Below the pieces are notes generated by a model that did no database searches, was not told the DNA's origin, and saw only the letters and a list, made by a program, of their open reading frames with translations. A DNA stretch of 64,000 nucleotides from Streptococcus parasuis (GTDB taxonomy: Bacteria; Bacillota; Bacilli; Lactobacillales; Streptococcaceae): positions 248,001-312,000 of the forward strand of contig NZ_AP024276.1 of the NCBI RefSeq assembly GCF_021654455.1. Direction: 5' to 3'. Shown piece after piece: positions 52,341 to 63,767 of the stretch. Numbering within the stretch: the first letter of the stretch is position 1; the number at the start of each line of letters is the position of its first letter. Both the position numbers and the translations under genes were made by a program.

Positions 52341-52892
52341 ATGACAAAAGCACTGATTTCAATAGATTATACGATAGATTTTGTCGCAGATGAGGGAAAG
52401 TTAACTGCAGGTAAGCCTGCACAAGCCATCTCAGAACGGATTGCTCAGGTTACATCTGAAGCATTTGAAAATGGAGATTATATTTTCTTTGCGATTGATG
52501 GGCATGAAACAGGTGATGAGTTTCACCCTGAAAGTAAGCTCTTTCCGCCTCATAATATCATCGGTACGTCAGGTCGGGATTTATATGGTCCTTTAGCAGA
52601 CTTTTATCTGGAAAATAAGGATCATGAGCGTGTCCGTTGGATGGACAAACGGCATTATTCGGCCTTTTCTGGAACAGATTTAGATATTCGTTTGCGGGAA
52701 CGTGGTGTGGATACGGTTGTTTTAACAGGTGTATTGTCTGATATCTGTGTCCTCCATACGGCTATCGATGCCTATAATAAGGGGTATCGGATTGAAGTAG
52801 TTGCATCAGCAATTGCTGCATTGACGGAGGAGAGTCATCAGTTTGCACTGAATCACCTGCGTCATGTACTCGGTGCGACGGTTATTGAATAA
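52341..52892 (+). CDS. pncA: Isochorismatase-family nicotinamidase
   Basis: 183 residues. Asp near the N-terminus in ISIDYTIDF, Lys in DKRHYSAFSGTDL and Cys in LTGVLSDICVLHTAIDA form the catalytic triad of cysteine amidohydrolases. Nicotinamide to nicotinate is the likely reaction in NAD salvage. The start at 52341 is one base from the codY stop and has no strong ribosome site, so coupling is likely; GTG 52329 is an alternative. Confidence 0.85.
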   Translation: MTKALISIDYTIDFVADEGKLTAGKPAQAISERIAQVTSEAFENGDYIFFAIDGHETGDEFHPESKLFPPHNIIGTSGRDLYGPLADFYLENKDHERVRWMDKRHYSAFSGTDLDIRLRERGVDTVVLTGVLSDICVLHTAIDAYNKGYRIEVVASAIAALTEESHQFALNHLRHVLGATVIE

Positions 52893-61167: not shown

Positions 61168-61518
61168 ATGGCATATTCATTAGATTTTCGTAAAAAAGTT
61201 CTCGCATACTGTGAGAAAACCGGCAGTATTACTGAAGCATCTGTTGTTTTCGATATTTCCCGCAACACCATCTATCAATGGCTAAAATTAATGGAGAGTA
61301 CAGGCGAGCTTCATCACCAAGTTAAGGGAACCAAACCAAGAAAAGTTGATAGAGAAAAATTAAAGAACTATCTTGAAGCTCATCCAGATGCTTTTTTGAC
61401 TGAAATAGCTTCTGAATTTGGCTGTCATCCAACAGCTATTCATTACGCTCTCAAAGCTATGGGGTATACTCGAAAAAAAAGAGCTGTACCTACTATGAAC
61501 AAGACCCTGAGAAAGTAA
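61168..61518 (+). CDS. IS630-family transposase, ORF A
   Basis: 116 residues with a HTH: MAYSLDFRKKVLAYCEKTGS, then EASVVFDISRNTIYQWLKL and GCHPTAIHYALKAMGYTRKKR. TATAAT (61156-61161) lies 6 bases before the ATG and no ribosome site is seen, so this is probably a leaderless mRNA. A run of eight A at 61473-61480 followed by G (A AAA AAA G) should cause -1 slippage and fuse this part to ORF B. Confidence 0.92.
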   Translation: MAYSLDFRKKVLAYCEKTGSITEASVVFDISRNTIYQWLKLMESTGELHHQVKGTKPRKVDREKLKNYLEAHPDAFLTEIASEFGCHPTAIHYALKAMGYTRKKRAVPTMNKTLRK

Positions 61519-62015
61519 ATCAGTTCCTTAAAGAATTTAATAACTTAAGTCACTTGACACCTGTTTATATTGACGAGACAGGGTTTGAGACATATTTTCA
61601 TCGAGAATATGGTCGATCTTTGAAAGGTCAGTTGATCACTGGTCAGGTCTCTGGAAGAAGATTCCAGCGGCTATCTTTAGTCGCAGGTCTTATAAACGGT
61701 GAGATTATAGCCCCAATGACCTACAAAGAAACCATGACTAGTGACTTTTTCGAAGCTTGGTTTAAAACATTCTTACTACCCACTTTAGATAGACCATCTG
61801 TTATCATTATGGACAATGCAAGGTTTCATCGGATGAGTAAGCTAAAAGAGTTATGCAAGGAGCAGGGTCATAGACTTTTACCACTTCCTCCTTACTCACC
61901 TGAGTATAATCCCATTGAGAAAACATGGGCTCAAATTAAAAAACACCTCAGAAAAGTATTGCCAAATTGCGATACTTTTCTTGAGGCACTTTTGTCCTGT
62001 TCTTGTTTCAATTAA
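61474..62015 (+). CDS. IS630-family transposase, ORF B (by -1 frameshift)
   Basis: After slippage the frame reads KSCTYYEQDPEKVNQFLKEF and goes on without stop into TPVYIDETGFETYF (first catalytic Asp), VIIMDNARFHRM (second Asp) and LPPYSPEYNPIEKTWAQIK (Glu), the full DDE set. Ends LLSCSCFN. The part from 61554 also starts with a GTT/TTG-like region but has no ribosome site, so fusion is the likely route. Confidence 0.9.
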
Positions 62016-62086: not shown

Positions 62087-62716
62087 ATGATTAAAGAATT
62101 TTGTTCCGAAAATCATGTAGCTGTGGTGAAAGCTCTTTCTCTGGGTGCTCAAAGAGTTGAACTGTGTGATAATTTAGCGGTTGGAGGAACGACCCCTAGT
62201 TATGCAGTGATCAAACATGTTTGTCAACTAGCTCATGAACAGAACGCCACAGTCATGACCATGATTCGTCCACGTGGTGGGAATTTTTGTTATGACCAAA
62301 CTGAAATTGAGATGATGGTTGAGGATTGCAGAATCGCCATAGAGCTGGGGTCAGATGGTTTGGTATATGGTGTTTTAACAGAGGAAAATTGGTTGGATGA
62401 GGTAGCTTTAGAACAATTGCTGGCTGTTTCAACAGGTCACCAAGTTGTCTTTCATATGGCATTTGATCAGATTCCTCGTAGTCGTCAATTTGAAGCAATT
62501 GATTGGTTGGCAAGTCACGGAGTAACACGGATTTTGACGCGTGGAAGTCTGACAGGTTCAGCATTGCAGAATATTGATTGGTTAAGAGACATTCAAGCCT
62601 ATGCGGATGGAAAAATTGAAGTTCTTGTTGGCGGTGGATTAACCATAGAAAATGTTCCAACTTTATTAGAAGCATTACCAATCAATCAAATACATGGAAC
62701 GAGATTATTTTGGTAA
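62087..62716 (+). CDS. cutC: Copper homeostasis protein CutC family
   Basis: 209 residues, TIM-barrel. AVVKALSLGAQRVELCDNLAVGGTTPSYAVI (about 12-42), MTMIRPRGGNFCYDQTE and FHMAFDQIPRSRQ are CutC marks. The link to copper is from genetics in other bacteria; the enzyme activity is unknown. Start ATG 62087 after AAAGGA. Confidence 0.9.
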   Translation: MIKEFCSENHVAVVKALSLGAQRVELCDNLAVGGTTPSYAVIKHVCQLAHEQNATVMTMIRPRGGNFCYDQTEIEMMVEDCRIAIELGSDGLVYGVLTEENWLDEVALEQLLAVSTGHQVVFHMAFDQIPRSRQFEAIDWLASHGVTRILTRGSLTGSALQNIDWLRDIQAYADGKIEVLVGGGLTIENVPTLLEALPINQIHGTRLFW

Positions 62717-62774
62717 GGTGCATTGAACCTAATAAAAATTACAGGATAATAAACGTGCGTCTTTTAGAAGTATT

Positions 62775-62812
62775 TTTAAGTTAAGGTTTGTTTAAGCATT
62801 GGAAGATACAAT
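62775..62812 (+). promoter_or_regulatory. CiaR-type promoter
   Basis: GTTAAG - GTTTG - TTTAAG (62780-62796) is the TTTAAG-N5-TTTAAG pattern of CiaR with one change; another TTTAAG lies at 62775. TACAAT (62807) follows exactly 10 bases later, the spacing of CiaR-activated promoters. Confidence 0.7.
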
Positions 62813-62818
62813 ATATTT

Positions 62819-62877
62819 ATTCTTTTTCATATAATCTCCACGAAAGCAGTCGACACAGTCGGCTGTTTTCATTTTTG
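62819..62877 (+). ncRNA. Probable cia-dependent small RNA (csRNA)
   Basis: About 60 bases from the predicted start point. The unpaired 5' part contains CATATAATCTCC, complementary to a GGAG...ATG translation start. A 12-bp terminator stem (62842-62853 with 62859-62870) and T-rich tail end it. Layout and size fit csRNAs of other streptococci. Targets unknown. Confidence 0.65.
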
Positions 62878-63083
62878 GTTGTTAAAGTTCTTTACACAGC
62901 CTAGAAACTGCTACGGGAGAGCTTCGATAACTTTTTTACGAGATTCAAGTTAACATATCTGATATCGATAGCGCTTGACAATAGTTTTTTATGTGAAATA
63001 AGCAGGTAGATTTCCGAGTTGAAAATGTTTACAAAAAAAAGCAAACTTGCTAGAATAGCAATATAAAGTAGCAGGAGGATATC
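62878..63083. other. Region before the 227-residue protein gene
   Basis: TTTACA (63030) and TAGAAT (63053) 17 bp apart form the likely promoter of the next gene. TTGACA at 62974 has no clear -10. Nothing else seen. Confidence 0.5.
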
Positions 63084-63767
63084 ATGGGAACAGCTAGACT
63101 TCATGAAATATTGGACAAGATAGTATTGCCAGAAGGGTATTATGAAAAACTTTTAGAATATGCCAAAGAGGGAAAATCCGGTTTCGATGCTGAATTGGAA
63201 AGACTTGGTGAACAAGGATTACTGCTTAATATTTATCAAGGAAATGAAGAAGATCGAAATATTATCTTGCCAAATATTGAAAATGTAGACAAGGAAATTA
63301 GAGAAGAATTGGCTCAATATGCTGCGTCTCTCTTGAATCCCCTACGTAAAGAATTAGGAACTGTGGCTGTTGAAGTGAGTGATTTAGCATTGGATTATGC
63401 CGTTCGCTTAGCTCAATCATTGAATAGTACCCTGCGCTATCATAATTATGACAGTCTAATTGCGATTGCAAAAACGACAGGTGTGGAGCCGAGAGGGAAA
63501 GATTGTCAGTCATTTTCGGAATACCGAGAACAATACAGTCTCTATGATGCTAAAAAATTAATCTATCGTGCTCTGATATGGCGATTGTTTGATGATAGTC
63601 ATGCGGATTACGGACATGCATTGACCATTTTAGGGTTAGATGAGGATGAGTCAGGGATAGAGCAGATTGGTTTTGCTTTTTCAAAATTTACTCTTGACAT
63701 TGACTGGTTACTGACCCATATGATTTTTATTCCGAAGGATTGGATTTTGGAAAAAGGTCAGATTTAA
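63084..63767 (+). CDS. Protein of unknown function
   Basis: 227 residues, acidic, mostly helical, no membrane segment or signal peptide. MGTARLHEILDKIVLPEGYY opens it; the C-terminal half has HADYGHALTILGLDEDESG. AGGAGG is well placed before ATG. I recognise no family. A terminator follows at 63799, so it is a single-gene unit. Confidence 0.75.
   Translation: MGTARLHEILDKIVLPEGYYEKLLEYAKEGKSGFDAELERLGEQGLLLNIYQGNEEDRNIILPNIENVDKEIREELAQYAASLLNPLRKELGTVAVEVSDLALDYAVRLAQSLNSTLRYHNYDSLIAIAKTTGVEPRGKDCQSFSEYREQYSLYDAKKLIYRALIWRLFDDSHADYGHALTILGLDEDESGIEQIGFAFSKFTLDIDWLLTHMIFIPKDWILEKGQI

Follow-up and report, generated by a model that had tools for sequence, protein, structure and literature searches.

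In the pneumococcus, CiaR controls a family of small RNAs, the csRNAs, which have been reported to act on the start region of comC (PMC4507080); in S. agalactiae, a csRNA has similarly been described as acting at the sap start region (PMC9603419). Marx et al. gave the CiaR consensus as NTTAAG-N5-TTTAAG and placed the start of transcription 7 bases past the -10 element (PMC3091779). These authors predicted three csRNAs in S. suis 05ZYH33 in 2010, namely csRNA26 (52590-52761), csRNA27 (278732-278804) and csRNA28 (352037-352094; their Table 2), reported that a nonamer, [A/C]UCCUAAA, is missing from all of them, and assigned the same name to RNAs of 80% identity (PMC3091779). An inventory of 2021 describes the S. 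suis csRNAs as predicted, not confirmed (PMC8186281).

We have analysed a 64,000-nt stretch of Streptococcus parasuis DNA (GCF_021654455.1, NZ_AP024276.1, positions 248,001-312,000 of the forward strand), which we call the window; coordinates of the locus are positions in this stretch. The segment at 62775-62877 is very probably a csRNA gene, an orthologue of csRNA28, specifying a CiaR-activated RNA of 58 nt that would block ribosome entry alongside its siblings. Its upstream neighbour on the same (+) strand is cutC (62087-62716; Pfam CutC, E 9.5e-55), the product of which scores 122.9 bits against NCBIfam CutC, under the cut-off of 311. The genome belongs to the S. suis group, its CutC sharing 100% identity with the S. 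suis HCJ31 protein. Directly upstream of cutC, an IS630-type transposase occupies two overlapping frames (61168-62015). Downstream, a 227-aa protein is encoded at 63084-63767: it has no Pfam match, and its NCBIfam match to a surface-exclusion domain (109.7 bits; cut-off 70) is odd for a protein of such size.

The initial annotation had proposed a CiaR-type promoter and a short RNA at this site, and on re-reading the sequence we found every position that it gave to be correct. Two half-sites, GTTAAG (62780-62785, + strand) and TTTAAG (62791-62796, + strand; the latter also present in relatives G173, G075 and G022), are separated by the five bases GTTTG, as had been claimed, so that the direct repeat spans 62780-62796. 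An additional TTTAAG at 62774-62779 is lost in G022. The -10 element TACAAT (62807-62812, + strand) begins exactly 10 bases 3' of the box; application of the start rule of Marx et al. (PMC3091779) to this element predicts an RNA start at 62819. The predicted csRNA28-type RNA (62819-62876, + strand) is thus 58 nt long, close to the transcript of about 60 bases that was anticipated, or 51 nt up to the first U run.

The terminator, which had been called strong, occupies 62842-62876 on the + strand (a 13-pair stem at 62842-62870, then ATTTTT), and the fold of 62819-62877 (-18.6 kcal/mol, z -6.08) is equalled by none of 200 shuffles. This hairpin constitutes the entire predicted fold: RNA bases 1-23 are unpaired, and they contain both CAU and CUCC, in agreement with the annotation's proposal of an unpaired part that could cover a ribosome site and an ATG. 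The two motifs, an anti-AUG (CAT, 62828-62830, + strand) and an anti-SD (CTCC, 62836-62839, + strand), are part of a 20-base anti-TIR block, TTCTTTTTCATATAATCTCC (62820-62839, + strand), that recurs in the same genome, and their spacing is that of the complement of GGAG-N5-ATG. As expected of a csRNA, the predicted RNA is intergenic, ends in an intrinsic terminator and has a length inside the range of 51-202 nt. The nonamer, which is common in csRNAs and not a defining feature, is absent from 62819-62876. With pneumococcal csRNA1-5 (Rfam RF02379) the window RNA shares the CiaR box, the terminator and, in the RF02379 consensus, a closely similar UUUUUUCAUAAUAAUCUCC block; it differs in having neither a 5' stem-loop nor the nonamer. 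Against the RF02379 model it scores 25.4 bits (E 0.3), short of the gathering score of 57.

How much weight can the promoter bear? The CiaR box alone is not above chance in the window (9 sites with up to 2 mismatches versus 12.6 expected), and in the whole genome it occurs at 22 sites with up to 1 mismatch versus 71 for the reversed pattern; a box on its own was therefore rejected as evidence. The strict form NTTAAG-N5-TTTAAG-N10-TANNNT is found once in the window and in none of 200 window shuffles. A looser box-plus-(-10) form is likewise found once, and at least one such match arises in 34 of the 200 shuffles, a frequency that lends something to the idea that the hairpin is simply the terminator of cutC, with box and -10 element brought together by chance and no separate RNA. 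The same idea gains from a scan of 62600-63100, in which no other terminator was found. Our case rests on conservation and on sibling copies, and both count against such a coincidence, which we regard as very improbable: box, spacing, -10 element and 5' part are identical in G022 despite drifted flanks, and similar boxes recur together with the 20-mer in other contexts.

The conservation was assessed with a 151-base query against 197 Streptococcus genomes. With at most four candidates scored per genome, 31 genomes are represented among the matches listed, and in at least four of the 197 (the source genome, G173, G075 and G022) the match includes the promoter (149-151 query positions), a small number that weighs against our reading. 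G022 is the most diverged of these four. From the box to the RNA start, it is identical to the window at 39/39 positions, and the first 21 bases of the RNA are also unchanged (21/21); the terminator part retains 33/37 bases, and the flanks only 43/63 and 46/84. Over the whole RNA, 54 of 58 bases agree, at equal length. We also searched downstream of 79 named cutC loci: by pattern check, a csRNA of this type lies behind cutC in one of them (L023, S. suis HCJ31), two others (L032 and L034) carry, at roughly this position, RNAs that also follow a box but are built differently, and in L045 a weak match to the block lies elsewhere and has no box; in the remaining 75 this check found nothing. The L032 RNA carries CATACCCCTCC instead of the usual block. 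Separately, a set of minus-strand 27-base matches (93%, many genomes) was considered as a conserved mRNA target and rejected, since the 11 examined read as another csRNA on the opposite strand.

A conserved CiaR-type promoter immediately upstream also bears on the suggestion that the RNA is a processed 3' end of the cutC mRNA that has no promoter of its own. Such processing would suit the shared strand and the lack of a terminator between the two genes; nevertheless, it leaves that promoter unexplained, and sibling copies stand elsewhere, in other contexts. We consider an origin by processing to be highly unlikely, and retain the reading of a separately transcribed csRNA gene.

To which csRNA does the gene correspond? 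In G022, the copy after cutC lies at 349312-349369 (58 nt, of which 51 nt precede the first U run), and the csRNA27-type copy starts at 275950 and is 73 nt long; the csRNA27-type start precedes the csRNA28-type start by 73,362 bases in G022 versus 73,305 in the table of Marx et al. The csRNA26-type gene of G022 starts at 52588, versus 52590 in 05ZYH33, and both are 172 nt, a length counted in G022 to the first U run. The two sizes printed for csRNA28 are explained by the same measurements: 58 nt is the total length, and 51 nt the length to the first U run. As judged from its context, length and neighbour spacing, the window RNA is the orthologue of S. suis csRNA28. It shares with csRNA28 of 05ZYH33 the position after cutC (as found in the matching relative G022), the CiaR box with 10-base spacing and the 58-nt range, a fold consisting of the terminator hairpin only, and the anti-SD and anti-AUG motifs; it differs at 4 of 58 bases, with G022 standing in for 05ZYH33. 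Since G022 and 05ZYH33 are taken to share the gene, the window RNA would be named csRNA28 under the 80% rule. The earlier reading of the site as a CiaR-type csRNA gene accordingly fits the layout, the conservation, the copy number and the csRNA28 match; taken alone, the window locus is an already predicted csRNA, in print since 2010.

The 20-mer TTCTTTTTCATATAATCTCC occurs in the source genome at six exact places plus one with a single mismatch, window included. The exact copies outside the window are at genome positions 1735997, 1801043, 1801211 and 1801379 (the last three in a tandem array) and 1781007, and the mismatched copy is at 67501. A CiaR-like box stands at the proper distance from six of the seven, the exception being the copy at 1781007. 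The siblings occupy contexts other than cutC. In the array, three csRNA27-like genes follow each other at intervals of about 168 bases (1801011-1801458, L132), and tandem csRNA copies were also found in G022, G173, G112 and G016. The boxless copy at 1781007 is inside a direct repeat of 122 bases (1780942-1781063 and 1800978-1801099; L187 and L188) that contains a csRNA copy and brackets about 20 kb of DNA, in which lie a gene for a transposase (Pfam DDE domain) and a putative Tn916-like region. A loose parallel to this repeat-flanked insertion is the pneumococcal prophage reported to insert into csRNA3 (PMC9764711).

Across all sequence examined, we collected 48 distinct copies of the anti-TIR block (matches to at least 19 of its 20 bases, with enough flank); a box and a -10 element are correctly spaced in 44 of them. 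The other four comprise one start site of a coding gene (in G205), the boxless copy at 1781007 and two copies with a degenerate half-site. The Rfam csRNA model returned no match at E up to 1 in four loci that have CiaR-type copies (L132, L134, L135 and L136). As for the regulator, a gene at about 961 kb of the source genome encodes a response regulator with the helix VVEVYVSKVRKKM and is followed by a histidine kinase gene; it is on this helix and gene order that we name the pair CiaRH. The CiaR helices in PMC3091779 end in L, whereas that of the present regulator ends in M, and among the best 25 NCBIfam matches for each member of the pair there are only general ones, below cut-offs.

Another observation emerged from a search of the source genome for GGAGATT-N0-8-GAAAAA, which gave 18 sites versus 1 for a reversed control. 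Seven of these are the anti-TIR copies described above; four belong to a second set of RNAs. These begin with AUCCUAAA, followed by UUUUUCAUAAUCUCC or UUUUUCAUAAAUCUCC, and close with a hairpin and T run; a CiaR box is absent. From these four RNAs we built the pattern GATG-N18-26-TATACT-N3-14-ATCCTAAA, and with it found 132 sites, distributed over 33 of 197 Streptococcus genomes, versus 1 control match over all 197. Six of the sites are in the source genome, at 217269, 600178, 1614483, 1628188, 2023904 and 2145466 (L355-L360). Three genomes have a single site (G004, G148 and G176), and the copies in G004 and G148 are without the anti-TIR block.

We counted features in 60 of the 132 sites, the six of the source genome included (the G176 site and one short-spaced G006 site were among those left out); in these counts the search pattern dictates GATG, TATACT and ATCCTAAA, and the remaining features are free. 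When the 60 are aligned on their -10 elements, a shared AAAATC[A/G]G[T/C]C[T/C]TAAGAC[C/G/T] appears ahead of GATG, and the inverted repeat TCAGHCTnnAGDCTGA is matched at 12 or more of its 16 positions in 59 copies, against a background of 16 in 582 window positions ending in GATG. The gap from GATG to the -10 element is 20 bases in 51 copies, 19 in eight and 21 in one. Fifty-five have the anti-TIR block (five are without), 59 have a terminator-like end, and a CiaR half-site at -10 distance was found in none of the 60. The Rfam csRNA model gives 32.2-35.3 bits, below the gathering score of 57, in five of the six copies of the source genome.

The inverted repeat of the second set is the motif that PMC4447274 quotes for CesR; this source also reports that S. 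mutans LiaR fails to bind the repeat in the absence of an adjoining A-containing stretch; S. mutans LiaR is further described as not binding its own liaFSR promoter. The promoters that LiaR and CesR control in S. mutans and Lactococcus (PMC4447274) have in common with ours the A-stretch beside the inverted repeat; they differ in that the element here precedes predicted csRNA-like genes. On the resemblance of the motif to the CesR/LiaR repeat, we infer that LiaR would control the second set. At about 359 kb the source genome encodes LiaF (above the NCBIfam cut-off) and LiaS (449.4 bits versus a cut-off of 450), and the next gene specifies a response regulator, the type of which is read from sequence alone; at the score used, there is no LiaR-like box at this liaFSR operon. 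One further line was discarded as evidence, namely a narrow-dyad scan of the source genome, which gave 16 sites where the reversed control gave 18, and in which just one of the six second-set boxes reappeared. From its promoter motif, the second set looks to be wired to an envelope-stress regulator other than CiaR. The titles and abstract openings surveyed held no description of csRNA-like RNAs with a LiaR box, and passages of an S. suis VraSR paper (PMC5955479) contain neither the motif nor an sRNA; it is this LiaR-box sibling arm that looks to be new.

What might these RNAs pair with? The initial annotation had suggested searching the genome for complementary start sites. The complement of TTCTTTTTCATATAATCTCC, with up to 3 mismatches, occurs at 10 places versus 1 for the reversed pattern: the seven csRNA copies and three start regions, which belong to a LemA-family gene, a GH3 gene and a solute-binding/permease gene. 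Among 146 start regions of the source genome, which include preselected sites, the best csRNA28 duplex is with the GH3 gene (-23.6 kcal/mol; mean -11.0, sd 3.3), the product of which matches Pfam GH3 and, below the cut-off, an NCBIfam beta-N-acetylhexosaminidase. The same start ranks first among the 146 for five of the six second-set RNAs of this genome. The LemA-family (-17.7) and solute-binding/permease (-17.0) start sites are weaker, and one unselected start site in the window gave -19.4. But of 300 shuffled RNAs in which CAT and CTCC were kept, 17 also reach -23.6 or lower. We therefore offer the GH3 start as a candidate target of csRNA28, and as a lead only.

That shuffle result also speaks for a CiaR-driven RNA with some other main effect: the stabilisation of an mRNA, the titration of a protein, or action as an RNA sponge. 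There is a precedent in S. suis, in which the sRNA rss03 has been described as stabilising an mRNA. Yet the block with anti-SD and anti-AUG is among the best-kept parts of the gene, and the reported site of action of pneumococcal csRNAs is the comC start region; an effect of another kind seems improbable to us, if a shade less so than the two readings without a dedicated promoter.

We return, then, to a csRNA that blocks translation. Envelope stress would most likely lead CiaR to switch the gene on: phosphorylated CiaR, as the consensus suggests, would bind the direct repeat and activate the -10 element ten bases further on. The 58-nt product would consist of a single-stranded 5' part and the terminator hairpin, and the 5' part may pair with mRNA starts of the form GGAG...AUG, blocking ribosomes, a proposal drawn from the complementarity and from the work on pneumococcal csRNAs. 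In this scheme csRNA28 would act in concert with siblings that have its pairing block (six copies in this genome have a CiaR box), while in six more csRNA-like genes a pairing block of closely related sequence follows a LiaR-like box. What the analysis itself establishes is the layout, the conservation and the copy number; transcription, the control by CiaR and LiaR, the targets and the repression are all elements that we infer.

The window copy supports and extends the prediction of 2010, and supplies coordinates that can be tested; the second sibling set is the more important part. We consider it probable that two sibling sets of small RNAs exist in the S. suis group, one driven by CiaRH and the other by LiaFSR, with closely related blocks that converge on mRNA starts of the same type: the CiaR arm would comprise csRNA28 and its siblings (six boxed copies), and the LiaR arm, here, six copies, in which the classical csRNA nonamer comes first, followed typically by UUUUUCAUAAUCUCC and a terminator. 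If this is true, the nonamer, which Marx et al. reported to be lacking in the csRNAs that they predicted for S. suis, would exist in the S. suis group after all, in RNAs that escape CiaR-box searches. Within the searches made, the LiaR arm would be the first case of csRNA-like RNAs that CiaR does not control, and with a LiaR-type box before csRNA-like genes, two systems that respond to cell-envelope stress would be linked through translation.
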